DNA from: Oceanihabitans sp. 2_MG-2023
Lineage (GTDB): Bacteria > Bacteroidota > Bacteroidia > Flavobacteriales > Flavobacteriaceae
NCBI RefSeq assembly: GCF_030547245.1
Contig: NZ_JAUOQT010000003.1
Location: 310,001 to 374,000, forward strand
Direction: 5' to 3'
DNA: 64,000 nt
Part shown: positions 7,579 to 26,602 of the stretch, piece after piece
Numbering within the stretch: position 1 is the stretch's first letter
Layout: every line of letters begins with the position of its first letter
The notes under the pieces: generated by a model
What the model was told of the DNA's origin: nothing
Seen by the model: the letters and a program-made list of their open reading frames with translations, nothing else
Databases searched by the model: none
Made by a program: the position numbers and the translations under genes

Positions 7579-7586
7579 TATCTTTG
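7579..7586 (+). promoter_or_regulatory. -7 promoter box of the regulator gene
   Basis: TATCTTTG matches the Bacteroidota -7 consensus TAnnTTTG exactly. It ends only 11 bp before the regulator's ATG at 7598, so the transcript would have almost no leader. No good TTG -33 element sits at the standard 17-23 bp spacing; a TTG at 7562 gives 14 bp. Confidence 0.5.
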
Positions 7587-7597
7587 ATTTAATAATT

Positions 7598-9073
7598 ATG
7601 GAAGAAGAATATATAAAGCTCATATTTGGCTTGAAACTCAAGCAAATACGTACAGACAAGAATTTATCGTTATTTGGTTTATCTAAGCTTTCGGGGTTAT
7701 CTAAATCGTATTTAAATGAAATTGAAAAAGGAAAAAAATATCCGAAACCAGATAAAATTGTAACACTTGCAGAAAAATTAGACATTCCTTATGATCAAAT
7801 GGTGTCTTTAAAATTAGACAAAAATCTAGCTCCTATTGGAGAGATTTTGCAGTCTAAAATTTTAAAAGAAATTCCGTTAGAAGTATTCGGTATAAAAGAA
7901 AGTACTTTAATAGAAATTGTTGCCAATGCACCTGCAAAAGTAAATGCTTTTATTAGTACTATAATTGAAATTGCACAACATTACAACTTTAGCAAAGAAA
8001 GTTTTTACCTGGCTTCCCTTCGTTCTTTTCAAGAAGCAAATAACAATTATTTTGACGATTTAGAACAAAGCGTTCTTGCTTTTGCAAAAGCTTATCAAAT
8101 AGACTTAGACAAACCAATAACCTCAAAAGAGCTCGAAGATATTTTAGTAGAAGAGTTTAATTATACTATTCATAATAAAGAACTAGACAAACACAAAAGC
8201 TTAGATAATTTACGTTCTGTTTTTGTACCAAAAAATAAAACACTACTCTTAGCTAGTGAGATAGATGATGCACAACGTACTTTTATTTATGCAAAAGAAT
8301 TGGCTTATAACTATTTAGAATTAGAAGATAGATTATATACTTTTTCTTGGATTAAATTTGAAAGTTTTGATCAGGTTTTAAATAATTTTTATGCTTCCTA
8401 TTTTGCTGGAGCATTAATATTACCTAAAGCCTTAATCACCAAAAAACTAAAAGAGGTTTTTGATAAAAAGACTTTTGATACTTCGCTTTTTCTAAAAACA
8501 ATGGATTGTTTTAATGCTTCCCCAGAATCCTTTTACCAACGTTTAACGAATATTCTTCCAAAAGAATTTAATATTCAGAATTTATTCTTTTTACGATTTA
8601 CGCACAAATCTGGTAGTGAGAGGTTTCATCTTAAAAAAGAGCTACATTTATCACATCAACATTCACCTCGTGCCAACGAAACCAACGAACATTATTGCAG
8701 ACGTTGGGTTTCCTTACAAGTTTTAAAAGATAGTAGTAATACTAATGAAAATCATGTGTTTGATATGCAAATATCGAACTACCCAAGTGATAACATGAAA
8801 TATTTAGTATTATCTTCTGCAACCAAAGATCCTTTTAAAGAAAAGCATTATAGAAGTATTAGTATTGGTTTATTAATTAACAAGCAATTACAACGAAAAC
8901 TTGGATTTATTGAAGACCAAAAATTAGTTACTCAAGATGTTGGTGTTACTTGCGAAAGTTGTGCTATTCAAAATTGTAATGAAAGAAAAGCGTCTTCCCT
9001 TTTATTAGAAAGACGAGATAAAAACAATAAAATTGAAAGTGTTGTTGCTGCTTTAAATAAGAAGTTTAGTTGA
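7598..9073 (+). CDS. XRE-family regulator of the ScfR/RamB type
   Basis: 491 residues from the ATG at 7598; an in-frame TTG 36 bp earlier is rejected because it lies upstream of the -7 box. Residues about 8-65 are a helix-turn-helix of the XRE class (KLKQIRTDKNLSLFGLSKLSG... YLNEIEKGKKYP). The middle matches the IrrE/DUF955-like region of short-chain fatty acyl-CoA regulators, but the HExxH zinc motif is absent (KELAY instead), so it is a sensor rather than a protease. The C-terminus has a conserved three-cysteine motif (Cys452, Cys455, Cys460). RamB and ScfR proteins control glyoxylate-shunt and propionate genes in response to acyl-CoA. Divergence from aceB supports the same role here. Confidence 0.85.
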   Translation: MEEEYIKLIFGLKLKQIRTDKNLSLFGLSKLSGLSKSYLNEIEKGKKYPKPDKIVTLAEKLDIPYDQMVSLKLDKNLAPIGEILQSKILKEIPLEVFGIKESTLIEIVANAPAKVNAFISTIIEIAQHYNFSKESFYLASLRSFQEANNNYFDDLEQSVLAFAKAYQIDLDKPITSKELEDILVEEFNYTIHNKELDKHKSLDNLRSVFVPKNKTLLLASEIDDAQRTFIYAKELAYNYLELEDRLYTFSWIKFESFDQVLNNFYASYFAGALILPKALITKKLKEVFDKKTFDTSLFLKTMDCFNASPESFYQRLTNILPKEFNIQNLFFLRFTHKSGSERFHLKKELHLSHQHSPRANETNEHYCRRWVSLQVLKDSSNTNENHVFDMQISNYPSDNMKYLVLSSATKDPFKEKHYRSISIGLLINKQLQRKLGFIEDQKLVTQDVGVTCESCAIQNCNERKASSLLLERRDKNNKIESVVAALNKKFS

Positions 9074-9090
9074 TTAAAGTTACCATTTTT

Positions 9091-9552
9091 TTATTGGTTA
9101 TTTCCTTCTAATGCTTTCCATTTTTCAAAGGAAACGATTCCGTTTTCTGGTTTAGGTTTTCCATCTAAAACACCAATAAACTCTAATACATTTCCGTCTG
9201 GGTCGTCAAAATATATTGCTATTGCTGGCATCCATGCAAAAACCATTGGTCTTTCGGTTCCATCATTCAAAAAATTTCGAGGTTTAATATTTCGATTTTT
9301 TAAAAATGTAACCGATTCATTTAAAATCCAATCTGGCTCGCAGGTAAATGCAAAGTGTCTGCTTTGTATTTCTTTCTTTGGCTTTTCCCATAGTCCCAAC
9401 ATAGATTGTTTAGGCGCTCCTATCCAAAAAAAAGTGACGCTTCTTTCTGCCTCATAATGACATTGTTCTAATTCCATTTTATTAGAATAAAAATCTATAG
9501 AACGCTCCAAATTTTCTACAAATAAATGAGTTTCATAAAGTCCTTTAATCAT
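9091..9552 (-). CDS. VOC (glyoxalase/bleomycin-resistance fold) family protein
   Basis: 153 residues from the ATG at 9552, which follows a purine-rich AAAAGAT; a longer start at 9582 adds ten residues ahead of the conserved LYETHLFVENLERSIDFY strand-helix and is less likely. The paired beta-alpha-beta-beta-beta modules of the VOC superfamily are visible, with metal-ligand candidates His in ETHLFV, His in RHFAFT and Glu in VLEFIG (DPDGNVLEF is the hallmark). Members include glyoxalases, FosA/FosB-type thiol transferases and dioxygenases. The substrate here cannot be assigned. Convergent with the regulator gene, 17 bp apart. Confidence 0.85.
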   Translation of the reverse strand: MIKGLYETHLFVENLERSIDFYSNKMELEQCHYEAERSVTFFWIGAPKQSMLGLWEKPKKEIQSRHFAFTCEPDWILNESVTFLKNRNIKPRNFLNDGTERPMVFAWMPAIAIYFDDPDGNVLEFIGVLDGKPKPENGIVSFEKWKALEGNNQ

Positions 9553-9760: not shown

Positions 9761-10411
9761 TTATGAAAGTTCTTTCAAAGCATCAATAATAGCATCCGGT
9801 TCTGCACGTGTTCTATAATCTACATCTACAAAACTCCATTTTACCATTCCATCGATGTCTAACACAAAAGTTGCTGGAATTGGTAATATGTTTCTATTTC
9901 CATTATTTATTGTTTCTAAATCTAAATTACGATCTACTCGCATATGCTCCATTAAAAATTCTGGCACTTCCCAAGCAACACCATATTGCGAAGCAACTTT
10001 TGCATCTTGATCTGACAATACCATAAAATCCATTTCACTAATCTCATTTTTGGTTAGCGAACCGTCTGGTACCTGAGGACTAATTGCAACTAATGAAGCT
10101 CCAAGCGCATGAATATCGTTTAATCGCGATTGTAAAGCTCTAAGTTGCAAATTGCAATACGGACACCAATCTCCTCGATAAAAGGTGACAACAACAGGAC
10201 CTTCTTTTAGTATCGTATGAAGTGATATTGATTTTCCTACAGGATTAGGAAGTATGAAATCTGGTGCTTTTTCTCCCACTTTAATAGCATTTTTACCTTC
10301 TTGAAAGGTTTTTGCTTTTTCGATAATAGTATCGACACCTTTCATGAATTCAGGCTTCGCATTTCGACCAGCTGCAATTTTTGCGTCGGTTTGTTCTTTT
10401 AGGGTTTTCAT
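9761..10411 (-). CDS. Peroxiredoxin-like (AhpC/TSA) family protein
   Basis: 216 residues. Thioredoxin-fold protein with the sequence YRGDWCPYCNLQLRAL (about 95-110), giving two cysteines in a WCPYC arrangement where peroxiredoxins have their peroxidatic Cys and thioredoxins their CxxC. The segment APDFILPNPVGKSISL is the typical AhpC/TSA entry strand. The N-terminal 45 residues are helical and charged, and no signal peptide is seen, so it is probably cytoplasmic. The family is annotated as peroxiredoxin-like or alkyl hydroperoxide reductase-like; whether it is a peroxidase or a thiol oxidoreductase cannot be told from sequence. Monocistronic by spacing. Confidence 0.88.
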   Translation of the reverse strand: MKTLKEQTDAKIAAGRNAKPEFMKGVDTIIEKAKTFQEGKNAIKVGEKAPDFILPNPVGKSISLHTILKEGPVVVTFYRGDWCPYCNLQLRALQSRLNDIHALGASLVAISPQVPDGSLTKNEISEMDFMVLSDQDAKVASQYGVAWEVPEFLMEHMRVDRNLDLETINNGNRNILPIPATFVLDIDGMVKWSFVDVDYRTRAEPDAIIDALKELS

Positions 10412-13870: not shown

Positions 13871-15907
13871 TTACTCAACGGGCTTTATTAATTTTTTATC
13901 AATGTAGTTCAAGTGAAACTCAATATCAGATGTTGCTTTTTCAAATGTTTCGTCTGAGTTTTCAAATGAAGCAAATAGTAAAGTTTGAGCATTTTTATAT
14001 GAAGCTAATTCTTTTAAAAATTTTGTAAAATCATTAATTGACATATCTTGTTGTTTGGGTTCGTCAAACATTAATAAATTTGGATGATTTCCATTTTTAG
14101 CAACTGAAGTTTTATATAAACTACAGGTATAAGCCCAAATACTTCTAACAAAATCGCTAGCAGAAGAATCAAATCTAATATTATAATAAAGTTCATCATT
14201 TGGCTTTTTTGCTAAAGGCAAGTAATTCTCATCAGAAATTGCAATATCGTTAATTGTTTTACTGCTATAATTAAATACACTTAAAAGTGATTTGAAATTA
14301 TCAGATAATGATTTTAATTTAGAAATATCATTAGGAGAAAAGGTGTCTTTTTTAAGTTTCTCCTGCTCTTCTAATATTCGTTTCCATTTATTAGAAAGAG
14401 ACGATAATTCGTCTTTTAGTTCTGCAAAATCCTCTAAATATCTCGAATAAAACTCAATTCTTTTCTTTAAATTTAATCGGTATTCTATGTCCACTATTGA
14501 AGGAAGTCTATCGTCAGAAGTTAGTTCTTTTTTTAGTTCTCTTATTTGACTTCTAAGATTGTTCTGTGAGATTCTTTTTTTATTTAAATTACTTTCTTTA
14601 TTAACAATTTTAGATTCTAAACTTTCAATATTTACTTCTAGCATTTTAATTTGAGCAGATAAGAAGTTTATATTATCTTCTAAACGCATTGGAACTTGTT
14701 TCACAGATAAAGGAAGTAAAGAATCATTTATTTCTTGGCTACAAGTTGGACAATTATTTTGCGAAACTTTTAAGTCGATTTCAGCTCCCATTTTTTGAAC
14801 TTTAAGAGCTCCCTTATTCTTTCTTAAATCTTCAGTTAAGTTTTCTAATTGATAATTAAAATTACTTAATTTTTGCTTGTCAAATGTTAATTCACTTGAT
14901 AGCATTTCTATGTCAAAACTTAGTTGATTTAATTGTTCTTCATTTTTTACAATTAAATTTTCGTCTCTATTTATTTTATCTTTAACTGTAACTGTTTCAC
15001 TTAGATTTAAAGTGTCAAATTCTTCAATGATAATATCTAAATAGTTTGAAATAGAATAGTCATTTGTGTCTTTTGAAAGTAGAATATCAATTTCATTGAT
15101 ATTATTAATAATCATTGGAGAGTCAGATAAACCAACAAGTTTACCGCCTCCTTTCTCTGTAAACCTTTCAAAGCTCCTTTTTAAATTTGACCAGTCATTT
15201 TCAAGGATTCTCTTTGAAATGCCTAATTCTTGTTTTTTCATTTTATTGCCGTAGACATCCATATCTAGTATGAACTCTACAACCCTAGCTTCTTTATTAT
15301 TTAACCCATAAATAGGCATTGTTGCAAAAAAATCTGACCACCCTGATTTTTGCTCAATTATAAAACTTGAAGCTACTTGTTGAATATATATTTTACGTAA
15401 ATCTCCTTTGTTAGTTAAAACTTTTGGGAGATGCCAATTTAAAAATTCTTCAAGATATAAATGAAAACCATAATTCTCATCAGACGCACCTCCATTGTCG
15501 TGAATAAACATTGGACGACTTTCTAAAGTTGGATTAACGAATAGACTACCGAAATAAACATCTATTAATTGCGATTTTCTATTGGGACTTTGCACAAACC
15601 TTCTTAAAGTAATTATATCTCCGTTTGAATTTTCAATTTCTAGTAAAACGAAAGATTGAAGCACACTGTGAAATGTGCTTTTGGGATATTCTACTTGGTC
15701 TTTTAAAACAGATTGCATTGTTTTTTCAAACCTACCACCAATTAATTCTTCAAAACCAAGTGCATATACGATAGCTTGGAATAAGCTACTTTTTCCACTA
15801 GTATTATTTCCTCGAATAATATTTAAGCCTTTTTTAAAAGTATGGAAAGTTCCAAAAAGACCGTTATTCGTATTTACATTTATTTTTATGTTGTTTATTT
15901 TAAGCAT
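13871..15907 (-). CDS. Rad50/SMC-like ABC ATPase of a three-component (ABC-3C, Lamassu-like) system
   Basis: 678 residues from the ATG at 15907; that start overlaps the preceding stop by 8 nt, whereas an upstream start at 15940 would overlap more and add a leader. Walker A GNNTSGKSS at about 33-41, Walker B NLLMFDEP at about 610-617 and a degenerate signature segment (SSASDFVRS, about 582-590) near the end mark a split ABC/SMC-type head. Between them, about 230-520 is coiled coil, broken by NCPTC (Cys386 and Cys389), a Rad50-like zinc-hook candidate that would dimerise the arms. In ABC-3C/Lamassu modules this component senses DNA ends or foreign DNA and releases the effector. Third gene of a tight minus-strand operon. 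Confidence 0.82.
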   Translation of the reverse strand: MLKINNIKINVNTNNGLFGTFHTFKKGLNIIRGNNTSGKSSLFQAIVYALGFEELIGGRFEKTMQSVLKDQVEYPKSTFHSVLQSFVLLEIENSNGDIITLRRFVQSPNRKSQLIDVYFGSLFVNPTLESRPMFIHDNGGASDENYGFHLYLEEFLNWHLPKVLTNKGDLRKIYIQQVASSFIIEQKSGWSDFFATMPIYGLNNKEARVVEFILDMDVYGNKMKKQELGISKRILENDWSNLKRSFERFTEKGGGKLVGLSDSPMIINNINEIDILLSKDTNDYSISNYLDIIIEEFDTLNLSETVTVKDKINRDENLIVKNEEQLNQLSFDIEMLSSELTFDKQKLSNFNYQLENLTEDLRKNKGALKVQKMGAEIDLKVSQNNCPTCSQEINDSLLPLSVKQVPMRLEDNINFLSAQIKMLEVNIESLESKIVNKESNLNKKRISQNNLRSQIRELKKELTSDDRLPSIVDIEYRLNLKKRIEFYSRYLEDFAELKDELSSLSNKWKRILEEQEKLKKDTFSPNDISKLKSLSDNFKSLLSVFNYSSKTINDIAISDENYLPLAKKPNDELYYNIRFDSSASDFVRSIWAYTCSLYKTSVAKNGNHPNLLMFDEPKQQDMSINDFTKFLKELASYKNAQTLLFASFENSDETFEKATSDIEFHLNYIDKKLIKPVE

Positions 15908-16373
15908 TTTGGTTTTTCCATTTTTTATAAATTGAATCAATTCGATTATCTGTGATTTTTCGTTTGCCTAGAAATTTTAAGAAATCAATTTCTTCGTTTA
16001 AATATTCTGGGTCTTCGATTATCTTTTGATAAAAAACCTCTCCCTTTTCCTCTAATTGATATTTCCCATCAGATATTGAGCAAATTCCTTCGTGGACGGA
16101 ATAGTTTAGAGCTCTATTAAGACTTGGTTCAATACCCCAAGTTTTTGAACTTTCAGTATAATTGCTAAGCACAAATTTTTTAAGGGAGTTTCTATTTTCA
16201 TCACTTTTTAAAGCCCAGTTTATCAAATGAAGTTTTAAAAGGCTAGATTTAGAACTTTGGCAACATATTTTTAATATTAATACAATTAATCCAATGGTAT
16301 ACGAAGGTCTATATTCTGGAGGAATAGAAATAGGTTTCTTGGAAAATGTAATTCTTTCAGCGTATAATTCCAT
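15900..16373 (-). CDS. Middle component of the ABC-3C (Lamassu-like) system
   Basis: 157 residues. The segment YRPSYTIGLIVLILKICC followed by LLKLHLINWALKSDENR is the hallmark layout of ABC-3C middle components: helices followed by a winged-helix-like domain (about 55-115, with a wing at SISDGKYQLEEKGEVFYQK). In this type of system the middle subunit links the ATPase to the effector. It starts 1 nt after the effector gene stops and its stop (AATGCTTAA) contains the ATPase start, so all three proteins are made in a coupled ratio. Assigned from layout and motif pattern; the exact middle-component subtype is not claimed. Confidence 0.75.
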   Translation of the reverse strand: MELYAERITFSKKPISIPPEYRPSYTIGLIVLILKICCQSSKSSLLKLHLINWALKSDENRNSLKKFVLSNYTESSKTWGIEPSLNRALNYSVHEGICSISDGKYQLEEKGEVFYQKIIEDPEYLNEEIDFLKFLGKRKITDNRIDSIYKKWKNQNA

Positions 16374-17303
16374 TTATTCAAAATTTATTGGGCATCTAAA
16401 TATCCAGTCAGCTAATGCCCAATTTGTTAGTTTAGAAATCATTTGAGGAGCTAAATTTTTAAATGAATTTTGTAATTCACTTTTTAATAAAATTCTAAAC
16501 TCTTCATATAATACACTAGGTTCTTTAGTGTTAGTGATGCATCTTTCTTCAATCTCTGATTCAATTACACTAGTAATATTTAAAAAATTCTCATAGTCTA
16601 AGGGATAATCTTCTTTCCATTTGATTAATATGTTGTTGCCTTCCAAATAATTTTGAACGTTTATATCAACTAATTTATCTAGATTTGAATCAAAGTTTGT
16701 AGCACTGCTACTTAATCTATGAGTGTTTTTATTTTGCGAATTTTCTATTAAAGATATTTTAGAGTCTTTCCATTTTAATTTGTCAACAGATTCTATTTGA
16801 GTTTCAGGAATGACATCAATTTTGATTTTTGAATTTTCAATAGCAGTATTTAAAAATGGGTGTAAAAAACTAATATCCTCAAATATTACTTCAAAATCAT
16901 TATTATCAATTATTGATAAATTCCAGCTTTTTACTTCTTCCTTTTTTTGTGAGCAATGCTGAACAATATCATTTTTTGCATAAATAGGAGTAACAAAATA
17001 CCATTTTTTGATTTTGGTCGTTCCTAGAATATTTTTCAATTGAGTTTCGTATGTTTTGAGCTTTTTTAAATCTTTGGTTATTTTATCTCTATGATTTTCA
17101 TAAAGGTCATTAGTAGAATAATGTTCATTTGGACAATAACATTGAAAAACCTTTCCTGTTCTTGTGAAGCCTTCAATCCCAAAATCGCCAGGAGTTGCCT
17201 TTATTTCTTGATAAGACTCTTCTCTAAAATTATTCTTGAAACATAACTGAGAAACACTTTCCCATTTGTTACCATCAAAAGTTCCGAATTCTGTTTTTAT
17301 CAT
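16374..17303 (-). CDS. Candidate nuclease-fold effector of the ABC-3C (Lamassu-like) system
   Basis: 309 residues. The N-terminal half resembles a PD-(D/E)xK restriction-endonuclease fold: Glu15 in KWESVSQL, then TPGDFGIEGF with Asp40 and Glu44, then KVFQCYCP in the position of the usual (E/Q)xK strand. The catalytic lysine is a tyrosine (Gln54-Cys55-Tyr56), so the site is a variant or inactive. The following WYFVTPI strand (about 101-107) also fits the fold. The C-terminal half (about 190-309) is helical, with a conserved-looking LSSSATNFDSNLDKLVDINVQNYL segment (given as positions about 196-219), and probably contacts the middle component. First gene of the operon. Lamassu effectors often carry such N-terminal nucleases; cleavage here is unproven. 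Confidence 0.65.
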   Translation of the reverse strand: MIKTEFGTFDGNKWESVSQLCFKNNFREESYQEIKATPGDFGIEGFTRTGKVFQCYCPNEHYSTNDLYENHRDKITKDLKKLKTYETQLKNILGTTKIKKWYFVTPIYAKNDIVQHCSQKKEEVKSWNLSIIDNNDFEVIFEDISFLHPFLNTAIENSKIKIDVIPETQIESVDKLKWKDSKISLIENSQNKNTHRLSSSATNFDSNLDKLVDINVQNYLEGNNILIKWKEDYPLDYENFLNITSVIESEIEERCITNTKEPSVLYEEFRILLKSELQNSFKNLAPQMISKLTNWALADWIFRCPINFE

Positions 17304-17358: not shown

Positions 17359-19071
17359 TTATTTAGTTTCCTCTTTAACCACTTCCTTTAAAGCCTTAAT
17401 AGAATCTATTTGGCGTTGTAGTTTTTCAATTTGCAATGCTTCTTTATCTACAGCAGGAATTGATTTTATAGAATCTAATATTTTTTGTGCAGTTTCTATT
17501 GTTTTTGTTTCTTCTTCAAAATAATAACCAATTCCTTCACTTGCTCTCCATGCTTCGTTTAATTGATCATACACTGTTTTTTCCCATTGACTTGGGTGTT
17601 TAGCATCAATCCAAACTACATCTCTGTATTCGCTATCTATTAAGGCTAAATCTGGAGTTGCAGAACCATCAAACTGAGCACTTTCTTCTCGTACAGCAGA
17701 AACTGTTCCTAAAAAAAACATTCTTTTTCTACCTGCAATATCTTTAATATAGGGTCTAAACTCTACTGGTTTATTAACAGACCAATCGTATTCTTTTCTA
17801 GATTCTATAACTTTTAATGGCATTGCGGAAACACCAGCATATCCTTGTTTTTTTTCTGCATGATTATAATAATAAAGAGCGTCTGTACCATCAGATGGGA
17901 TAAAAACACTAAAGGTTAAGCTAGTACGCTCGTCTCCTACAGGCTCTAATCCAAACCAATGGTACAAGCCACTGTAAGCACTTACTTTAGTATCTGAAAA
18001 ATCAAAATCGGTTACAAAAGGCTGCTGATTTTGGTCGTTTGGTAAGTTTGGAATTTTAACAGCAGTTTTCATATTCCATGGCAATGGATCGCTAAATCCG
18101 CCTAAAAATTTTAAAGATTCTGCTTGTAAACGAGAAACTTTTTCAGACAATGTATTTTGTTTTGTTAAATATGGATGGCTCTGCATTTCTTCTGGAGAAA
18201 TATAAGTTCCTTTTCCAATGGTAATACGTTCTATATAATCGTTAAAATCGTGTTCGCCACTATCTACAACCATAACACCTCCAAAAGTAGGATATGGAAA
18301 TAAGAAACCTTTCCATTTAATTAGGCTTACTACTTCTACCCATTGTCCGGAATCGTTTTTCATATAAAACGTATCGCTTGGTTCAAAATTAAAAAGCATC
18401 CAAGGATTAAAACGCTGTACTACTGCGTTGTATGTATTACGACTAAATTTTAAAGATTCGCCAATAGAAAATGTTACTGGAATCCTGTTTTCGCTAGAAA
18501 AACGAGGAAAAGGTGTTGTGCTAGATACAGCAAAAACTTCTTCTGTATTATCACTCATACCTTGCCAAACGTACTTTTCGGTTGGCTGTATTGCCATTGT
18601 CCATTTATTTAAACCGTCTACTCTAACTAGATGTGGAAGCGAAACATCTTTGGTTTCTCCAACACTTTCATTAGCCATAGAATAAATATTTCGCAGTGGT
18701 TGTATACGTTCGTTTTGCGTTAAAGGAAGTTCATTTATTTGAATTTTATTTAGATTATTATACACATTATATGTTTTCATATAATCATACATCTTAAAAT
18801 GCCAACCTACAAGATATAGTAATCCGAAAAAAAGCATCATCATTACCAAAACGCCAATTCTGCTTCCACCGGATGCAGTATTTCTAAATTTTCGCAAACC
18901 TAGAAATAGCACAATTGCACTTAATAGAATTACAAAAATGTACTTTCTTACAAATAATAAAGCTGGTTGATAATCGTCACGTAAAATAAACAATGCGATT
19001 ATTAGCACAAGTAAACCTATAATTACAATTGTTTTTTGCTTTGCTCCTTTTTTCCAGTAGTTTTTAATCAT
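17359..19071 (-). CDS. Large membrane protein of unknown function
   Basis: 570 residues. Three hydrophobic segments near the N-terminus (about 15-33, 43-60 and 73-93) are followed by a large soluble domain of about 430 residues, presumably on the outer face of the inner membrane, and a charged coiled-coil tail (about 525-570). No catalytic motif or family was recognised. Last gene of a minus-strand run that also holds a second membrane protein, an AAA+ ATPase and a long coiled-coil protein; it may be the membrane-bound partner of that set. A repeated aromatic-proline pattern (RFNPWMLFNFEP, FLFPYPTFGG) suggests a beta-rich ectodomain. Confidence 0.7.
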   Translation of the reverse strand: MIKNYWKKGAKQKTIVIIGLLVLIIALFILRDDYQPALLFVRKYIFVILLSAIVLFLGLRKFRNTASGGSRIGVLVMMMLFFGLLYLVGWHFKMYDYMKTYNVYNNLNKIQINELPLTQNERIQPLRNIYSMANESVGETKDVSLPHLVRVDGLNKWTMAIQPTEKYVWQGMSDNTEEVFAVSSTTPFPRFSSENRIPVTFSIGESLKFSRNTYNAVVQRFNPWMLFNFEPSDTFYMKNDSGQWVEVVSLIKWKGFLFPYPTFGGVMVVDSGEHDFNDYIERITIGKGTYISPEEMQSHPYLTKQNTLSEKVSRLQAESLKFLGGFSDPLPWNMKTAVKIPNLPNDQNQQPFVTDFDFSDTKVSAYSGLYHWFGLEPVGDERTSLTFSVFIPSDGTDALYYYNHAEKKQGYAGVSAMPLKVIESRKEYDWSVNKPVEFRPYIKDIAGRKRMFFLGTVSAVREESAQFDGSATPDLALIDSEYRDVVWIDAKHPSQWEKTVYDQLNEAWRASEGIGYYFEEETKTIETAQKILDSIKSIPAVDKEALQIEKLQRQIDSIKALKEVVKEETK

Positions 19072-19165
19072 TGAAAATTTATTTTTTCATTCCCATGAAA
19101 ATGGGAATCTATTTTTTTTATATTTGATTTTATATTTAAAAGATTCTAGTCTTCGCAGAAACCTA

Positions 19166-19711
19166 CTACATCAACCCTTTGTCTTTCAATCTTTCTCTTG
19201 CACTTTTCGTTTCTGCTTTCGCATCTTCTTTTACTTCTTTTACTTCAGATTCTGTTGTATCAAAAGTTCTTTCTCCTTTTTCTTTTAAATCCTCAATAAA
19301 ATCTTTTCCTTTTTCTATGGTTTCCTGAAAAACATCTTCTATAGAGTCGCTTTTTTCATCGATTACCTCTCCCGATTTGAAAATAAAATTAGCTATATAT
19401 GTGCCAATTAGCGTACCAACAATACTTGAGAAAAATATAGAAATACCGTAGTAATTGCTAAATATTTTAAATGGAGTTAAAAATTGAAACAATACAGCAA
19501 TTAATAAAAATGCTCCAGCTACATAAACTAGTCTTGGCAAAAAAGCTTGTTGGTATACAAAGCCTTTTTTATTGGAAGCTTTCATTTGCAAAGCTTTGTT
19601 GTTTAGCATCTTATTAATAAAACGATACAAAGCATTTCCATTAGACTCTCTCCAGTAAATAAATATTCCGAAAAGTATTGCTGCTATAAATATGATAACT
19701 TCTAAACCCAT
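19166..19711 (-). CDS. Membrane protein with charged helical tail, unknown function
   Basis: 181 residues with three hydrophobic segments (about 3-19, 58-77 and 86-110) followed by a highly charged C-terminal tail (about 115-181) of K/E/A-rich amphipathic helix, reminiscent of YtxH or LEA-like tails. No function can be assigned. It lies between the 411-residue unknown protein and the 570-residue membrane protein on the same strand with gaps of 43 and 94 bp, and probably belongs to the same functional set. Confidence 0.65.
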   Translation of the reverse strand: MGLEVIIFIAAILFGIFIYWRESNGNALYRFINKMLNNKALQMKASNKKGFVYQQAFLPRLVYVAGAFLLIAVLFQFLTPFKIFSNYYGISIFFSSIVGTLIGTYIANFIFKSGEVIDEKSDSIEDVFQETIEKGKDFIEDLKEKGERTFDTTESEVKEVKEDAKAETKSARERLKDKGLM

Positions 19712-19754
19712 TTTTTTGTTTTATATGACTGACTACTAAATTAGTCTAATTTCT

Positions 19755-20990
19755 TTAAATATTGTTACTAATAGTTTCTATTACCCAATCTTTCATTGAG
19801 TCACTGTAAGTTTGATATGCTTTATAAAATGCTTCTTTATCATACCAATACAAAAACAATACATCTTTAGGCGAAACATTAATTAGTAGTTTCCAGATTA
19901 AATCTTGGTGTTTTGCATTAAGAGAGGAATGTGGCTGATGTAATGCATCATAAAACTTTTGATTAACTAAATCATGAATTTTAAAAGTGTTGCTTCGTTC
20001 TATTTTTTCTAAATAAATTTCTACCCCATTTACTCTTTTTAAAGCTGTAGCATCTATAGTATTTAAATATCGTCTAAATAAAACATTATCGTCTAAAACA
20101 TCTTTAATAGGATGCTTTGTTTCTTTTAATTCTTGATAGAGCATCATTTTTTTAACACGTTGGTATTGTGCTTTCTGAATAACTTTTTCTAAATCACATT
20201 CTACAATTACATGATCTCGCAGTTTATCCATGAGTTCTGGTTGCTCGATATGAAAAATAATGACTTCATGAATGGTGTCTTTTATTGCTTCTTTATACGT
20301 TTTAAGGTCTTCGAAAACAACAATTTCACTGATAAAATCTCGCAATACATAAACACCTCCAAGTGCTCTGGTATAAAAAGAACTTGTTTTAAAATCTATA
20401 GGAGGTAATTCTAAATCTCTATGCCTTAAATCGCCATAGGTTTTTGCGGAGTCAAGAAGTTGTTGCTGTAAATCTTCGTCTATAAAATTATTCCCTTCTT
20501 TAAATTTTTCAATAAGTTGAAATTGTTCTTTTTGTACATGATACAATTCGTTTATTAAATGAAAATTAATAGAAACCGTATCGTATTTAAGGACATCTAA
20601 GGGTTCGTAAAAAGCATCTATATTTTGATCGAAATCTAAACATATTGCGCAATCTCTTGTAATGTCATTAATTTTAGATTCGTAAGTATTAAAAACAAAC
20701 TTCATCATTTCCCGATCGAACGTATGATACGGAATGTAAACTGGGTTCCCTTTTTGCAGAGGAGAAATAATAATTCCGTGCGGGTTTGCATCTCCATGAT
20801 TAAGGTAATGCATGTTCTTTTTTTCTTCAGCAATTTCAGGACTCCAACCAATGCCGTCTATAGAAAAACTGGTAAGTGCTGTTGCATCAAAGCCTAATTT
20901 CACTAGGCATTTATTATAACGTTCTACCAATTTACCACTTATTGGTATGAGCTCACTTTGGTATAAATTAGCGTTTTTTAATTTTTGCAT
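19755..20990 (-). CDS. Unrecognised 411-residue cytoplasmic protein
   Basis: No signal peptide or membrane segment. Mixed alpha/beta N-terminal half with the motif-like stretch HYLNHGDANPHGIIISP (about 61-77), then a largely helical C-terminal half with repeated His-rich helices (EVIIFHIEQPELMDKL, DHVIVECDLE). No known catalytic signature was found. The gene lies upstream of the two membrane-protein genes and downstream of nudK on the same strand, in a run of conserved-looking but uncharacterised flavobacterial genes. It could be an adaptor for the neighbouring AAA+ ATPase; that is speculation. Confidence 0.6.
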   Translation of the reverse strand: MQKLKNANLYQSELIPISGKLVERYNKCLVKLGFDATALTSFSIDGIGWSPEIAEEKKNMHYLNHGDANPHGIIISPLQKGNPVYIPYHTFDREMMKFVFNTYESKINDITRDCAICLDFDQNIDAFYEPLDVLKYDTVSINFHLINELYHVQKEQFQLIEKFKEGNNFIDEDLQQQLLDSAKTYGDLRHRDLELPPIDFKTSSFYTRALGGVYVLRDFISEIVVFEDLKTYKEAIKDTIHEVIIFHIEQPELMDKLRDHVIVECDLEKVIQKAQYQRVKKMMLYQELKETKHPIKDVLDDNVLFRRYLNTIDATALKRVNGVEIYLEKIERSNTFKIHDLVNQKFYDALHQPHSSLNAKHQDLIWKLLINVSPKDVLFLYWYDKEAFYKAYQTYSDSMKDWVIETISNNI

Positions 20991-21047
20991 CTTGTTTCCG
21001 CGAAAGCGGTAATCTTATTCTTAATACTATTTTTCGTTTCTAAATAA

Positions 21048-21101
21048 TCACTCACTCCTGGTTACTATTTTCTCCTTCGTCGAAAATCACTCGAAGTGAC
21101 A
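21048..21101. repeat. Dispersed intergenic repeat, family A
   Basis: Ends in TCACTCGAAGTGAC (21087-21100), preceded by TCAC...TACTATTTTCTCC. The same layout recurs at 21741-21794, 25201-25252, 43674-43738 and 47097-47152, each in a gene gap. TCACT/AGTGA forms a short stem. Confidence 0.6.
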
Positions 21102-21107
21102 ATATAT

Positions 21108-21689
21108 TTAATCAATCCATTGATGTATCTGGGCGTATTGCAATAACATAATTGTTTTTGCATCTATAATTTCCTGATTATTCATCATTTGTATTGCTTC
21201 ATGAAAAGGGATTTCTAAAACTTCAATTTCCTCGTTTTCAATCGCTAATCCTCCACCTTCATTAATTTTCATTGCATCTGAATATTCTGCAACAAATAAG
21301 TACATTTTTTCGGTTACTGCTCCTGGAGAAGTGTAAGCTTCTAAAACCTTAGTTGCTTTTGGTATTTTATAACCAACCTCCTCTTCTACTTCTCTAATAA
21401 TACATACTTCAGGGGCTTCTTGCTTATCTATTGCTCCTGCACAAACCTCTATAGACATGCCTTCATTTTTATTATTCGCATAAGCAGGCATTCTAAATTG
21501 TTTGGTTAAAATTACAGTACGTTTCTCTATGTTATATAATAAAATACAGGCGCCATCTCCTCTATCGTAACTCTCACGAGAGATGCGTTTCCAGCTTCCA
21601 TCTTTAAATTGATAATCGTAATCGATTTGGTTTAAAGTAGCCCATTCATTAGATAATACCCTGTTTGTTATGTTTTTAAGTTTATTCAT
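21108..21689 (-). CDS. nudK: Nudix hydrolase, GDP-mannose pyrophosphatase NudK type
   Basis: 193 residues, close to the 191 of E. coli NudK. The Nudix box is intact: Gly-x5-Glu-x7-REVEEEVGY (about 86-108) supplies the Mg-binding glutamates. The rest also follows NudK: YDRGDGACILLYN, RTVILTKQFRMPAY, EVCAGAID, TSPGAVTEKMY, the AEYSD segment and the tail EIEVLEIPFHEAIQMM. NudK hydrolyses GDP-mannose (and other sugar nucleotides) to the sugar phosphate and nucleoside monophosphate in the cytoplasm. It sits inside an otherwise uncharacterised gene run and is flanked on both sides by copies of the family A repeat, so it may have arrived separately. Confidence 0.88.
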   Translation of the reverse strand: MNKLKNITNRVLSNEWATLNQIDYDYQFKDGSWKRISRESYDRGDGACILLYNIEKRTVILTKQFRMPAYANNKNEGMSIEVCAGAIDKQEAPEVCIIREVEEEVGYKIPKATKVLEAYTSPGAVTEKMYLFVAEYSDAMKINEGGGLAIENEEIEVLEIPFHEAIQMMNNQEIIDAKTIMLLQYAQIHQWID

Positions 21690-21740
21690 AATTTAAATAT
21701 CTACTAAAAATGCTTCTCTTATTATTTCCTTATTCAACAA

Positions 21741-21794
21741 TCACTTGCTTCTTGATACTATTTTCGCTTTCTCTAAAATCACTCGAAGTGACAT
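21741..21794. repeat. Dispersed intergenic repeat, family A
   Basis: TCACTTGCTTCTTGATACTA begins the unit and TCACTCGAAGTGAC (21779-21792) ends it. Best aligned with the copy at 47097-47152, which shares CTTCTCGATACTATTT. Confidence 0.6.
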
Positions 21795-21812
21795 GAGTTT
21801 TTAGGAAAAGAT

Positions 21813-23768
21813 TTATTTTCCAAACTGCTCTCTAGCTTCTAAATCGATATTCATTTGATTCACTCTTGCATCTACTTTTCGTTTAAAATCGGTATCTGCA
21901 ATGGTTGCCACATTATCTAAATATCGTACTACTTCTTGTCTTCTTATTTCGGAAAAGTCTAAACCTTTCATATTGGCTCGCATTAATTCTTGCAACATAT
22001 TAAACTTGGTATCGTAATCTTTTTTGAAATAAATTTCAGGATTGTCAAACCAATCTTCCTCTAAATCAAAATCGGTTAAACGAAGGGAAACTGCACTTTG
22101 AATATTACGAACATCACGCGAGGAAAAGAATGGAAAGATCTTTTGAATCTCCATGTATAAATTTGCATAAAACAGGTGATGACTTGTCTTAAAATGTTTT
22201 TCTACTTTACTGTAAGCATCCAAAACACGTTCTTCTGTTGGTTTATTAGAAACATTTAATATTTCTCCCATACTTTTTGCTAATCCTTGATCTTGTAAGT
22301 AGCTATAATTTTCTGGACCTTGCATATTTACAAAGTCTGGCATCGTTGTATCTAGTTTACGCCACCAAAGATGATCTTGATCTAAAAAGTCATGTTCCGT
22401 TCGTGCTCCATCAATTTTAAAACGTCCTTGTACACGAGAAATAACGGCTTTATCTAACATTTCTGGAAGATTGGTAAACAAGCCTACAGAACTATTACCA
22501 TAATTCACCGCGTAAGCACCTTCAGTATATCGTAAAAACACACCAATAACTTCTTTTACTCCTGCAGAAACACCTTGCGCAGTACGTTCTTGCAAATTAT
22601 TTTCGGCATCATCAATTGGTGCAAATATTAATTTTGTGGGATCTTGTAAAGGTTTCATCCATTCTACCATTTTTTCGGCAGAACCACCTTGAAAAGTACT
22701 AATTAAAGTATCTGGCATTGGGTGAAATAAAAATGGAATATCTAAATTATCGCAATGTTCTTTTAAACGTGTTGCAATTGCAGCAATTAACATACTTTTT
22801 CCAGTTCCTGGAATTCCATACCCCATAAAAACTGGCATAAAACCTCCAAGTTCTTGAAACGGATTTTTCTTTGCTTCAAAATCGTAACTGAGCATGCGTT
22901 CAGTTAAACGTCTTGCAAAGTGTTTTGCATCTCTGTTACCAACAATTTGTTCGAATTGAATTTTATTAAACTCGATACTTTTTGCTGTACCAGAAAACAC
23001 ATTATCCCAACCAGAAATCGCAAACTCGCTTTTTTCCAATTTATAAGTTCTATCTACTATAGTTTCTGTGTATTCTAAACTGCTTTTACGAAGTTGAATT
23101 TCGTCGATTAGTGCTTCAAAATAAACCACTGTAAAATCGATAACATCTTTATCTGATTTCACAATATCTGGATGCGCTAAATACTTGTCATAATAAAACA
23201 ACTGACATGCTATTCCTTTTAAAGGAGAAAGTAAAGATACTTCTGGAATACCCGCAAATTTTTGTTTCATAACCGATAAATCGTCAGAGGCATGCGGTTT
23301 TAAATCGTGTAATATTTTATAAGCAGTAGCAAAAAGCATATATGCGGTTGCAGTATGCCTTTTACTTTCGTATTCTCGTTTTCCGTTAGTATCTAAAGCC
23401 GATTTATTTTCGTTTAAAGTAGATAAACCGGATGCATCGTAATAACTATCTTTTATCCAAATTCCTAAAGTAATTCCTTCTTGAACCGCATAGAGTGTAT
23501 GATTTAAGTGAATTGGTATTGCTACAGATTCGGGTAACAAACGTTTTTTTAAAGCTAAAATAGTTTTAGAAACTGAAGTCACATCAACATGACTACCATT
23601 ATTTGCTCTAGACAAATACAGTAAAATGGATTCGTCTTTGGCATCATTATCTTTATTTTTTGCACGTTGGCTTTGTTCCCATTGTACCGATTTTATATAG
23701 CTAGTAGCTTCATCACGAAGCATATCTAGTTCGTTTTGTTTAATAGGGAAAGTTGTGTTGTGTTCCAT
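21813..23768 (-). CDS. AAA+ ATPase of unknown function
   Basis: 651 residues. A helical N-terminal region of about 260 residues precedes the AAA+ core: Walker A GIPGTGKS (318-325), Walker B LIFAPIDDAEN (Asp386/Asp387), a sensor-like FTNLPE (Asn433) and arginines Arg445/Arg449 in SRVQGRF that could act as finger or sensor. The Walker B acidic pair is DD rather than the common DE. The C-terminal 200 residues are helical, ending in a charged coiled-coil segment. No protease or nuclease domain is attached, so it is probably a remodelling or unfolding motor. The neighbours, a long coiled-coil protein and two integral membrane proteins, suggest work at the membrane. Confidence 0.82.
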   Translation of the reverse strand: MEHNTTFPIKQNELDMLRDEATSYIKSVQWEQSQRAKNKDNDAKDESILLYLSRANNGSHVDVTSVSKTILALKKRLLPESVAIPIHLNHTLYAVQEGITLGIWIKDSYYDASGLSTLNENKSALDTNGKREYESKRHTATAYMLFATAYKILHDLKPHASDDLSVMKQKFAGIPEVSLLSPLKGIACQLFYYDKYLAHPDIVKSDKDVIDFTVVYFEALIDEIQLRKSSLEYTETIVDRTYKLEKSEFAISGWDNVFSGTAKSIEFNKIQFEQIVGNRDAKHFARRLTERMLSYDFEAKKNPFQELGGFMPVFMGYGIPGTGKSMLIAAIATRLKEHCDNLDIPFLFHPMPDTLISTFQGGSAEKMVEWMKPLQDPTKLIFAPIDDAENNLQERTAQGVSAGVKEVIGVFLRYTEGAYAVNYGNSSVGLFTNLPEMLDKAVISRVQGRFKIDGARTEHDFLDQDHLWWRKLDTTMPDFVNMQGPENYSYLQDQGLAKSMGEILNVSNKPTEERVLDAYSKVEKHFKTSHHLFYANLYMEIQKIFPFFSSRDVRNIQSAVSLRLTDFDLEEDWFDNPEIYFKKDYDTKFNMLQELMRANMKGLDFSEIRRQEVVRYLDNVATIADTDFKRKVDARVNQMNIDLEAREQFGK

Positions 23769-24012
23769 TTGTTTTTAGTCTTCAGTATGCAATATTGAGT
23801 CCTCCGTATTTACTCTAACGGACATCCTTTGCTATTTTTTATTTAATCCTCAGTCTGCAGTGTGCAGTCAGGTTTAGTTTCTATTTAAATTTTTCATCCT
23901 CTAATTAATGGGTTTACCAATTTCTTCGCTTCTAATTAGCAATTCTTTTTGGTATGCTAATAATGTTTTAAATGACATTGCTTCTTTTTTACGTTCTGTA
24001 ACTGCAAACTAC
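23769..24012. other. Repeat-rich gap between the AAA+ gene and the 345-residue gene
   Basis: Contains short tandem-like heptamer variants such as CAGTCTGCAGTGTGCAGTC (23851-23869) and TTCAGTATGCAATATTGAGTC, typical of decayed flavobacterial intergenic DNA, plus a 25-codon frame (see the entry at 23901-23978). No larger gene was seen. Confidence 0.5.
23901..23978 (-). CDS. Possible 25-residue ORF or gene remnant
   Basis: ATG at 23978, stop at 23901. The ATG is preceded by AAAAAAGAAGC, a fair ribosome-binding site, and the peptide is helical (MSFKTLLAYQKELL and so on). It may be the start of a decayed gene, because such short helices open several flavobacterial small proteins. No homology was recognised, and it may equally be chance. 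Confidence 0.2.
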   Translation of the reverse strand: MSFKTLLAYQKELLIRSEEIGKPIN

Positions 24013-25050
24013 CTACTGAATACTACTTACTTCAATTGGTGCTTTTGCTAGTTTATTCATAATTTCTGGTGTTTTATTGTATAGTAATTGTATGATTCTG
24101 TGTGGTGCAAACACGTAACGTTGTCTAAAAACAGTATCCCATTTTTGAAAGGTTTGCTTGCTAAAGAAACTCCCTTCTTTAAATTCGCTTTGCGATTTTA
24201 ATTCGTCTATTTTAAATGAAATTGCATACGAGTTTAACGGAATCGTTTTTCTTGCAATACCTTCTAGAATTGCATGTGTTACTTGGTTCTCATCTTTTGC
24301 AAATATATTGTGTATAGGACCTAAATCTACTCTTTTTATGTGTTTAGGAAATACTTTAGGCAAACGTTTATCGATACCATAAGCCATGGTATCTAAATTC
24401 ATTTCTCTATCTGCAACCGTTTTAAGCGTTTTGTATATTTCGTCTCTTTCTTTTTGCGGATTACTACCATCGTAATCAAAATACATATAACAAATAAATG
24501 GTCTATTGTGTGACACATCGTAAAAACTCCAACTTACCAAGTGTTCTGCTGGTGCATTTTCTGGTGCTTCTATAATTTTACCTTGTACAAAACGATTAAA
24601 TATATATTCTTTTTTTGCGGATGCATAATACACTATTGAAGAAGCTTGAAATAATTTTCGTTTTGCTATTGGTTCTTTTTTGTGAAGTAAGGTGTTTAAA
24701 AACTCTTCTTTTAAAGTTTCTATATTGGTTAGTTTACCTAAATACTCTTCACGAAGCTCTAAATCATTAAACAAATAACGAAACTCTAAATAGTTTGGAA
24801 AACCAGAATCTGTTAAATCGACTTTCATGTTTTCTTCATCGTCGTACCTATATTTTACACGCATGGCTTCTACAGAATATAACAACAAATCGCTGTATTG
24901 CTTAAATAAGAGAATTTCTTGTTCGTTTAATAGTTGCTTTTGTTGTACTGCAACAATAAGTTCTTTAAGTGCAAAGTCTACCATTTTGTGATAGAAAACA
25001 TATTGCTCTTTGGAGTCAAGTATTGCGGAGTCTAGAGGTGTTACTATCAT
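24013..25050 (-). CDS. Unrecognised 345-residue cytoplasmic protein
   Basis: No signal peptide or membrane segment. N-terminal half mostly helical (about 20-150), then an alpha/beta part with aromatic-rich strands (LVSWSFYDVSHNRPFICYMY, about 172-191, and IHNIFAKDE). No catalytic motif was recognised. It lies between the coiled-coil gene and the AAA+ ATPase gene on the same strand, at least 200 bp from each, with repeats in both gaps. Consistent synteny with the AAA+ gene would suggest a partner or substrate adaptor, but nothing in the sequence itself shows this. Confidence 0.6.
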   Translation of the reverse strand: MIVTPLDSAILDSKEQYVFYHKMVDFALKELIVAVQQKQLLNEQEILLFKQYSDLLLYSVEAMRVKYRYDDEENMKVDLTDSGFPNYLEFRYLFNDLELREEYLGKLTNIETLKEEFLNTLLHKKEPIAKRKLFQASSIVYYASAKKEYIFNRFVQGKIIEAPENAPAEHLVSWSFYDVSHNRPFICYMYFDYDGSNPQKERDEIYKTLKTVADREMNLDTMAYGIDKRLPKVFPKHIKRVDLGPIHNIFAKDENQVTHAILEGIARKTIPLNSYAISFKIDELKSQSEFKEGSFFSKQTFQKWDTVFRQRYVFAPHRIIQLLYNKTPEIMNKLAKAPIEVSSIQ

Positions 25051-25100
25051 TGTTTGGCTATTAGCGTATAGCTTTTTTTGTTTGTTTAAGGTTGCGCAAG

Positions 25101-25198
25101 TGCGTTAAGGATTGAACGGTTTGTTTGAGCTCCTCGCAGAGAGCGAGTAGTGAAAGCCTGACCTAATTTTGCCATGAAAAGCAAAATTAGGTAACGCT
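25101..25198. repeat. Dispersed intergenic repeat, family B (copy 1)
   Basis: Begins TGCGTTAAGGATTG, contains GCCTGACCTAATTTTGC and ends GGTAACGCT. ACCTAATTTTGC (25161-25172) and GCAAAATTAGGT (25181-25192) form a 12-bp perfect stem with an 8-nt loop. A second copy in the opposite orientation lies at 46629-46709. Confidence 0.65.
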
Positions 25199-25200
25199 AT

Positions 25201-25252
25201 TCTTATCTTCACGATACTATTTATTCTTTTTTAATAAATCACTAGAAGTAAC
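25201..25252. repeat. Dispersed intergenic repeat, family A (diverged)
   Basis: TCTTCACGATACTATTTATT leads to TCACTAGAAGTAAC (25239-25252), two or three bases away from the family A end motif. It abuts the family B copy. Confidence 0.5.
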
Positions 25253-25255
25253 CTA

Positions 25256-26602
25256 TTAAGACAGCATATCGTCGTCGTTAGTTTCTGGTTTTGGAGCATC
25301 TGCTGGTTCATCACCTCCACCATTTGAAGGTGCATTAGGATCTGCAGCATAATAATCTTCAAAAATTTCTTTCATATCGATTCCGTAGCGTTCTGCAAAA
25401 TTCTTTTGAATGGATTTATCTTTCTCACGAATTTCATTTAAAGCCTCTGCATAACTACCGTAAACGCCTTGCATTACTTTTTCGTGTACCGGAATATTAT
25501 CCATCATTTCTTGACGTGCTTTAGCAGAAGCAGTATGCATAGATGCTAATGTTTCACCAATATGCTCATCTGTTTTTACTCCTAAATGTTCTAAAATTGC
25601 AGCAAATTCTTGGTCTGTTCTCGCCTTTAAAGCCACTACATAACCATCGTAGTATTTAAGACGTTCGTCGGTATCACTTTTTAATTTTGCACGATGCGTT
25701 TGTAAATTACTACGTAAAGAAGTTAATACTTTAATAGTTAAATTATGTTTGTGTACAAAACTATCTTTAGAAGCTGCAAGTGTTGTGTAAGCGTTTTTAA
25801 GCCCTTCTAACTCTTCTACTTTTTGCTCTAAAGTGGTTACCTTAGATAGTGCATCGGAGTATTCTGTAGATTGTTTATCTGCTACTTCTTCTAGTGCTTG
25901 ACGTGCTTGTTTTAATAAAGCGTATTGTTCTTCGAGTTTATCTTCTACTTCTTTCTTTTTTTGTAATGCCTTTGTATGGTTGTTAGAAGCTTCTACAATA
26001 GCAGTTTTAAGGCTTTCTTCTACTTCTTTAATTTCTACTTCTCGGTCTTTTAAGCGTTTTACAGCTGCTTGACTTTTAAAAGAAAGTTCGTTTAACAAGG
26101 TTTGCACATCTGCACTTTCTATACGTTGCTGAAATAATGCTTTTGCTTTATTATCGGCAGCATCACGAGTTTTTTGTGCTTCTTGTAGTTCTAGTTCTGC
26201 TTTTTTTATTTTGCTTTTTCTTCCCCAAAGGTTGTTCCAAAACGTATCTGGTTTTGCGTTAGCATCTTCCAGTTCAACTTTTGCACGCTCTAAACGCTTA
26301 ATAGCATCGTCAATAATTTTTTGTTCTTCGCCATTTAATGCCGAAAAACCTTCGAACATAATACCAACTTCGTCTTGATAATCGGTTAAGTCTTTAATGG
26401 CGTCTAATAATGTAGTTCTATCTTTTTCTGCCATATCTACAACATTATCTAATGTTGCATTTAAGATTTTTTGGCGGCTTTCTGGATCGTCTTCTTGTGC
26501 CAATTTTGACTTCATTTGGTCAATGGCTTTCCCCCAGTTTACATCTACCTTTTCTGTTTTCTCGTTGGCGTTTGTTTCTAATAAATCAAAATCATCAGAC
26601 AT
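25256..26602 (-). CDS. Long coiled-coil protein (TelA/PspA-like layout)
   Basis: 448 residues, cytoplasmic. Residues about 85-300 are an almost unbroken K/E/L/Q/A coiled coil, followed by further helices and an acidic, proline-rich disordered tail (about 415-448). Such proteins are sometimes labelled tellurite-resistance or microtubule-binding proteins by similarity to any coiled coil; neither label is supported by a motif here. The layout resembles TelA or PspA-type membrane-stress proteins. First gene of the minus-strand run leading to the AAA+ ATPase and membrane proteins, consistent with a scaffold remodelled by that ATPase (inference). Confidence 0.7.
   Translation of the reverse strand: MSDDFDLLETNANEKTEKVDVNWGKAIDQMKSKLAQEDDPESRQKILNATLDNVVDMAEKDRTTLLDAIKDLTDYQDEVGIMFEGFSALNGEEQKIIDDAIKRLERAKVELEDANAKPDTFWNNLWGRKSKIKKAELELQEAQKTRDAADNKAKALFQQRIESADVQTLLNELSFKSQAAVKRLKDREVEIKEVEESLKTAIVEASNNHTKALQKKKEVEDKLEEQYALLKQARQALEEVADKQSTEYSDALSKVTTLEQKVEELEGLKNAYTTLAASKDSFVHKHNLTIKVLTSLRSNLQTHRAKLKSDTDERLKYYDGYVVALKARTDQEFAAILEHLGVKTDEHIGETLASMHTASAKARQEMMDNIPVHEKVMQGVYGSYAEALNEIREKDKSIQKNFAERYGIDMKEIFEDYYAADPNAPSNGGGDEPADAPKPETNDDDMLS

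Follow-up and report, generated by a model that had tools for sequence, protein, structure and literature searches.

A conserved flavobacterial gene module with a classical-type AAA+ ATPase, apparently an undescribed ATP-driven machine at the cell membrane

Results

Gene content of the locus

The stretch of DNA analysed here (the window) comprises 64,000 nucleotides of contig NZ_JAUOQT010000003.1 of Oceanihabitans sp. 2_MG-2023 (positions 310,001-374,000). At 17359-26602 it contains seven reading frames, six of which are supported as one gene module encoding a coiled-coil protein (CC), a soluble protein (U2), an AAA+ ATPase, a DUF6638 protein and two membrane proteins (TM6 and TM7). An earlier note on this DNA, referred to as the original prediction, had placed the seven genes on one strand, and a check of the open reading frames found all of them on the minus strand, separated by gaps of 43-244 bases:

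25256-26602, minus strand: CC, an all-helical coiled-coil protein of 448 amino acids; module core
24013-25050, minus strand: U2, a soluble protein of 345 amino acids with no annotated family; module core
21813-23768, minus strand: AAA+, an ATPase of 651 amino acids, by its sequence of the classical AAA clade (PF00004, 1.3e-8)
21108-21689, minus strand: NudK-like Nudix hydrolase (TIGR00052, 3.6e-47); optional passenger
19755-20990, minus strand: DUF6638 protein of 411 amino acids (PF20343, 2.3e-30); module core
19166-19711, minus strand: TM6, 181 amino acids, with three hydrophobic segments, a variable tail and a nearly invariant SARxRLKDKG end
17359-19071, minus strand: TM7, 570 amino acids, with three hydrophobic segments followed by a large conserved domain, probably periplasmic

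Pfam searches of the window recognised the AAA domain, the Nudix domain and DUF6638, the last with 106.3 bits against a curated cut-off of 27 for PF20343; CC, U2, TM6 and TM7 matched no Pfam family above its cut-off. Of the two soluble proteins previously described as unrecognised, U2 accordingly kept that status, which holds only in part for the 411-residue protein. No protease domain or peptidase family was matched by Pfam among the ten window proteins scanned, in agreement with the description of the ATPase as lacking a protease domain. The Nudix protein scored above the cut-off of subfamily TIGR00052 (160.4 bits; cut-off 79.55) and below that of the NudK equivalog NF011585 (203 bits; cut-off 234). 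Hydropathy analysis gave three hydrophobic segments each for TM6 and TM7, with about 480 residues of TM7 after the third. The two predicted membrane proteins were thereby recovered, and the charges in TM7 suggest that the region after its third segment lies on the outer side, as had been proposed for a large outer domain. A search for promoter motifs upstream of the module genes yielded a single match, before U2, and nothing usable.

Gene order and conservation in flavobacteria

One genome per species was scanned and the best 80 of 304 AAA+ relatives were kept, a set that comprises the closest relatives and represents one broad group, with titles naming Flavobacteriaceae genera or unresolved Flavobacteriales/Bacteroidia bins. 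At all 80 loci the genes present followed the fixed order CC, U2, AAA+, (Nudix), DUF6638, TM6, TM7. All six module genes were found as reading frames at 77 loci, and the other three loci were cut by contig ends, among them a 3.4-kb fragment (L024) with little to order; TM6 was present at 78 loci and TM7 at 77. Mean identity to the window was 88% for CC, 89% for AAA+, 77% for U2, 69% for DUF6638, 59% for TM6 and 78% for TM7. Since gene order was identical throughout, with all six genes at 77 loci, the grouping of these genes is beyond chance. The Nudix gene was present at only 62 of the 80 loci and is therefore an optional passenger; the original prediction was right in recognising it as a Nudix gene, and its membership of the set is optional.

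The same ABC-F gene lay within the fetched stretch at 72 of the 80 loci, usually upstream and in one case (L072) on the other side. Between module members, 87 extra reading frames of at least 70 amino acids were present at 56 loci, with the order of the module unchanged in every case. One type of small inserted protein occurred at 19 loci and another at 10; we take these to be of four-helix type and GIY-YIG type, respectively.

Co-occurrence across genomes

Distribution was determined in 60 Flavobacteriaceae genomes, one per genus, with counts given without correction for kinship. AAA+ was present in 22 of them (23 matches, one of which was of FtsH type and was dropped), and CC and TM7 were each found in the identical 22 genomes; the carriers had one copy of the module per genome. 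TM7 of one genome (G015) was in two pieces at contig ends, and CC and AAA+ of another (G058) lay on separate contigs of a fragmented assembly. Across the phylum, AAA+ was found in 4 of 296 genomes (8 matches at E<=0.001, four of them FtsH-type), all Flavobacteriaceae, and DUF6638 in the same four. At E<=1e-20 the AAA+ profile matched 5 of 395 phylum genomes, again all Flavobacteriaceae. Weak Bacteroidota relatives of AAA+ in G025, G229, G284, G323 and G340 were recognised on reading as FtsH-type frames, by their HEAGH motif, and were excluded.

These data bear on whether unrelated housekeeping genes could have come to lie together here by chance, or through synteny alone. The intergenic gaps and the tolerated insertions are not those of a tight operon. 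Set against this are the order shared by all flavobacterial loci, the presence of CC, AAA+ and TM7 in the same 22 genomes, and the same arrangement of the four core genes outside flavobacteria, in proteobacterial records and one phage (see below). Conservation in three distant settings already contradicts a chance cluster for the core, and we consider this explanation barely credible. The genes that the original prediction had grouped are thus not scattered among relatives.

The original prediction had further likened the set to PspA/TelA-linked systems, a comparison that failed. PspA or TelA models were not listed for any module component among Pfam rows up to E 1. PspA (PF04012) was above cut-off in 7 of the 60 family genomes, none of which carried the module, and three weaker matches were likewise in module-free genomes; TelA (PF05816) was above cut-off in none of the 60, with one weak match below it. 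The window's own genome contained no match to PspA_IM30 (PF04012; control matched in 9 of 14) or to TelA (control matched in 3 of 14). The link was rejected on these grounds. Among the 60 genomes PspA and the module were mutually exclusive, a pattern with p of about 0.033 on the assumption of independent genomes, which these are not. The disjointness is suggestive of replacement of one by the other, a pattern that is weak when taken alone.

The AAA+ motor

Profile comparison of the AAA+ protein with the PDB gave VCP-like protein (4e-10) and Cdc48 as best solved relatives, followed by proteasome ATPases, Pch2, Vps4 and katanin, in a ranking of 60 rows among 146 matches. Alignment located Walker A at residue 318, the sequence STFQGG at 357, a Walker B reading IDD, Asn 433 and Arg 445/449. 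In all eight aligned proteins (four flavobacterial and four proteobacterial), the Walker A residues, Asn 433, Arg 445 and Arg 449 were kept, and F/Y followed by invariant Q360 and G361 was present at the expected pore-loop site. We take these residues to represent an aromatic pore loop, the sensor-1 Asn (433) and arginine fingers (445/449). In classical AAA proteins Walker B usually reads DE, whereas it ended in Asp-Asp (IDD) in all eight. The N-terminal region of about 240 residues shared 13-21% identity between lineages, compared with 30-34% in the core. By these sequence features the protein is assigned to the classical AAA clade (Cdc48/Vps4/proteasome type), and it appears to be a threading ATPase that is perhaps slow.

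Cdc48 and proteasome ATPases being among the nearest solved AAA cores, the locus might encode a machine that controls the quality of membrane or envelope proteins or inserts them, in which the ATPase would extract or insert substrates, U2 and DUF6638 would be adaptors and CC a scaffold, with no filament cycle. The lack of a matched protease domain agrees with such a role, as does the pair of membrane partners, of which one has a large domain that is probably outside. Conservation speaks against it, as CC (mean 88%) exceeded U2, DUF6638, TM6 and TM7 (77, 69, 59 and 78%), which suggests that CC is at the centre of the system, not an accessory to it; we regard this alternative as doubtful, though worth keeping in view.

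Criteria for Vps4/ESCRT (endosomal sorting complex required for transport) systems given in the available portion of PMC10936438 are an MIT domain, or ESCRT genes as neighbours. Among the ten window proteins scanned, Pfam listed neither MIT nor Snf7 models at E values up to 1, and the module therefore does not qualify as such a system. A cytoskeletal or division module resembling archaeal Cdv, with a CC structure at the septum or poles recycled by the ATPase, would accord with a Vps4-like AAA core (with a weak row for CdvC, 0.0054) beside a conserved coiled coil. The module was, however, not found in 38 of the 60 family genomes, which divide without it, and no MIT domain was matched by Pfam, which makes a Cdv-like function highly unlikely.

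The AAA+ protein also matched IetA (PADLOC, 2.5e-5; NCBIfam, 14.9 bits against a cut-off of 510) over the AAA core and the part that follows. An IetAS defence system was rejected, because the similarity to IetA was only of AAA type and no peptidase family occurred among the ten proteins scanned.

Coiled-coil protein, U2, DUF6638 and conserved ends

The predicted model of CC was a bundle of long helices (mean predicted local distance difference test score, pLDDT, 67), fair to good over approximately residues 21-320. Residues 256-411 had a mean identity of 95.8% to the window over 77 loci. In flavobacteria, CC kept an N-terminal DDFDLL and, after a variable linker, a C-terminal DDxL; the SARxRLKDKG end of TM6 likewise followed a variable stretch. 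From their sequence, these conserved ends are candidate grips for the ATPase.

The best Foldseek row for the CC model was AhlC (E 0.019), followed by ClyA-type pore-forming toxins. A second comparison gave Z 13.1 for a designed repeat protein and 12.6 for AhlB, with syntaxin, SMC arms and F-BAR lower; helical bundles with Z under about 13 perhaps share only a common arrangement, and no fold is claimed for CC. PspA and ESCRT-III were outside the best 50 rows of each comparison, which excludes nothing. Searches with profiles of DUF6638, TM7 and proteobacterial CC gave no relative of solved structure. A paralogous relationship of U2 and DUF6638 was unsupported (profile comparison, 0.2%), and a match of U2 to Csm6 over one stretch of about 75 residues (E 0.0038) was judged to be due to chance.

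Relatives in Proteobacteria

Translated searches were carried out over 72,556 plasmid records, and the proteobacterial evidence beyond the family pertains to such replicons. AAA+ relatives (27-28% identity) were present in ten records, four from Sinorhizobium, four from Vibrio and one each from Shinella and Rhizobium. The same ten contained DUF6638 relatives (22-26% identity), the four Vibrio matches covering under half of the query. U2 was matched directly by tblastn in six of the ten (Vibrio, Rhizobium, Shinella). One record was read for each of the four genera, and all four had the order CC-U2-AAA+-DUF6638 on one strand; flavobacterial CC was homologous to Sinorhizobium/Vibrio CC (hhalign 96.8%, E 2.8e-10). 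On S. meliloti pSymB (L119, 10851-12596) an endonuclease-domain gene and an ISRm16 transposase lay between AAA+ and DUF6638.

A DUF2333 (PF10095) membrane protein was encoded 3' of the core in Sinorhizobium and Shinella. TM7 as a relative of DUF2333 was unsupported (profile comparison 0.2%, with only two DUF2333 rows). The DUF2333 model matched none of the 60 family genomes; the control was also silent, so absence is not shown.

A jumbo-phage copy

A scan of viral contigs with DUF6638 gave a single match, a 359,044-base IMG/VR record (L128), which at 1794-9278 encoded on one strand and in order DUF2333 (7.7e-91), CC, U2, AAA+ and DUF6638 (5.9e-100). About 0.9 kb between its U2 and AAA+ genes was without a listed reading frame of at least 100 amino acids. 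The phage AAA+ shared 38-43% and the phage CC 37-47% identity with their proteobacterial counterparts. Within 20 kb upstream of the cassette were two virion structural PHROGs (8e-32 and 3e-33), both topoisomerase II parts and a PhoH-like gene; downstream were a spanin-like gene (1.2e-4), a few kb away, and a phage ATP-dependent-protease PHROG (3.7e-248). Elsewhere in the record there was a match to the Gp23 capsid protein (41 positions, 2.2e-7), and no match of the Terminase_6N model in the 359 kb. By its gene content the record looks like a real phage, and the phage evidence as a whole consists of this one metagenomic contig.

Viral scans with the phage's own AAA+ and CC found the same record only. 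The scan with the AAA+ profile matched only L126 (AAA core, 29%) and that with U2 nothing; both missed the copies present in L128, which shows that these scans lack sensitivity, and other viruses may have further copies. In 50,697 phage records there was no relative of the phage AAA+ (E<=1e-10), DUF6638 or CC (E<=1e-3). Two further viral records contained single genes. A scan with proteobacterial CC gave a 51-kb IMG/VR contig (L127) with a CC gene of proteobacterial type at its extreme end (8001-9086), perhaps the host flank of a provirus. An unverified record titled 'Pseudomonas phage Y11' (L135, 5001-5837; 67% GC) contained a DUF2333 relative with 44% identity to that of the jumbo phage; other module genes and an mfd relative were not found in the 10.8 kb fetched, and the record was left aside.

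A neighbouring Lamassu system

Directly downstream of the module, and outside it, lies a defence system that was not named in the original prediction:

13871-17303, minus strand: Lamassu defence system (PADLOC), downstream neighbour

It starts 55 bases downstream of TM7 and consists of contiguous minus-strand genes for LmuA (16374-17303; 6.3e-33), LmuC (15900-16373; 1e-26) and LmuB (13871-15940; 1.2e-105), which together define membership of Lamassu. None of the 80 fetched stretches contained a relative (E<=1e-5) of these three proteins, the only ones compared. Because the corresponding stretch of a near relative (L025), from TM7 to the counterpart of the window's 216-residue gene (9761-10411), measured only about 1.6 kb, Lamassu looks like a local insertion.

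The adjacency of Lamassu raises the possibility of an anti-phage or counter-defence machine, in which the ATPase and CC would sense infection and act at the membrane and the jumbo-phage copy would be a counter-measure. The patchy presence (22 of 60 genomes), the weak similarity of the AAA domain to IetA (2.5e-5) and the cassette of the one jumbo-phage contig, with a spanin-like gene only a few kb away, would suit such a function. A single copy per genome, the identities of CC (88%) and AAA+ (89%) and the ABC-F neighbour at 72 of 80 loci are, however, unlike mobile defence islands. The window's Lamassu had no relative in the 80 stretches, the IetA match was to the AAA core and the following part with no peptidase family in the neighbours, and the phage proteins were without relatives among the phage records searched. 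A defence function is thus, in our judgement, distinctly unlikely.

Discussion

Comparison with known systems

No description of such a module was found in the open-licence literature by narrow word searches. DUF6638 (PF20343) was not named in that literature, and DUF2333 (PF10095) appeared in one paper, the available part of which describes it as conserved but uncharacterised (PMC5256989). The genes therefore do not seem to have been characterised already, in line with the original prediction, which knew no such system.

TelA-linked systems resemble the module in that a multi-gene operon of stress type includes a long helical protein. They differ in that CC was not listed with PF05816, and TelA was above cut-off in none of the 60 family genomes. 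In the classical Psp operon the AAA+ protein, PspF, is of the enhancer-binding type. Phage shock protein (PSP) systems, including PspA with AAA+, share with the module a coiled coil, an AAA+ protein and membrane proteins in one neighbourhood, according to the available portion of PMC11237479 (which we take to be Ravi et al., 2024); unlike them, the module has no component matching PspA or PspC, and PspA above its cut-off was confined to module-free genomes of the family (7 of 60). The same portion reports PspA and Snf7 with Vps4-like and other AAA+ ATPases, as well as a coiled-coil protein encoded in Bacteroidetes next to PspA and Snf7, and does not contain the term DUF2333.

ESCRT-III/Vps4 and archaeal Cdv likewise combine an ATPase of the same broad classical AAA clade with a helical coiled-coil protein, a comparison of how the systems would work. 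In contrast to them, the module was without MIT or Snf7 match by Pfam, its CC had no significant fold match, and it has two extra soluble families and dedicated membrane proteins. Cdc48/VCP and proteasome-type unfoldases provided the best solved matches to the AAA core and share the pore aromatic, Walker A and sensor-1 Asn, whereas the module ATPase has a single AAA domain, its own N-terminal region of about 240 residues and a Walker B reading IDD. As defined by families, the module is on present sequence evidence not a PSP, TelA, ESCRT or IetAS system. It is apparently an undescribed ATP-driven machine at the cell membrane, with a function that we infer from sequence, and by analogy it may work like a Vps4-type cycle.

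Proposed mechanism

The gene content and fixed order, the co-occurrence of CC, AAA+ and TM7, the AAA class and motifs, the helical CC model and the hydrophobic segments are the observations from which we tentatively favour, as possible rather than probable, an ATP-driven cycle that dismantles a membrane-anchored coiled-coil assembly. CC would assemble on the inner face of the cytoplasmic membrane by means of its C-terminal part, which is nearly invariant. The membrane component (TM6 and TM7, or DUF2333 in Sinorhizobium, Shinella and the phage) would anchor CC and couple it to the envelope, and U2 and DUF6638 would be adaptors guiding CC to the AAA+ ring. The ring may then grip a flexible tail and thread it past the aromatic pore loop; a gripped tail would agree with the sequences of CC and TM6, each of which has a variable linker leading to a conserved end. 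Threading would take the CC assembly apart and so turn over the scaffold, in an overall role that may be envelope upkeep. The membrane-remodelling or stress machine of the original prediction holds as a gene module, and its role in remodelling or stress stays conjectural, the CC model being without a significant fold match.

Several results weigh against this dismantling cycle. The CC model had no Foldseek match to solved folds at E<=0.001, so that an ESCRT/PspA-like filament is not demonstrated, and the DUF6638 model (pLDDT 66.5) similarly had no fold match at E<=0.001. Residues 329-448 of the CC model had pLDDT mostly below 50; poor modelling of this part on its own would be expected if partners or copies of CC itself are needed. 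The DDxL end was not present in proteobacterial and phage CC, the end motifs of CC and TM6 being flavobacterial. The membrane part was non-homologous between lineages by profile (TM7 compared with DUF2333), and the fetched R. leguminosarum and Vibrio stretches contained no DUF2333 relative. Because Walker B reads IDD and not DE, ATP turnover may be slow. The co-occurrence count, finally, took in CC, AAA+ and TM7, with U2 and TM6 outside it.

A more far-reaching version of the dismantling cycle is an ESCRT/Vps4-like machine without PspA/ESCRT-III parts, in which an AAA+ ring would cyclically disassemble a membrane-bound CC polymer with the help of two adaptors and interchangeable anchors, and which would be common to Flavobacteriaceae, proteobacteria and at least one jumbo phage using the machine on the host membrane. 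Taken as a whole, this version is unlikely.

Significance

The module ties several families of unknown function (CC, U2, DUF6638 and TM6/TM7 or DUF2333) into one testable machine with a clear motor. Genomes had CC, AAA+ and TM7 together or had none of the three, so that a few deletions could reveal the role of the module. In view of the jumbo-phage copy, one may ask why a phage would bring its own machine. If CC is an ATP-recycled membrane scaffold, the module would represent a bacterial cycle of this kind whose components had no link to PspA or ESCRT-III in our sequence searches.

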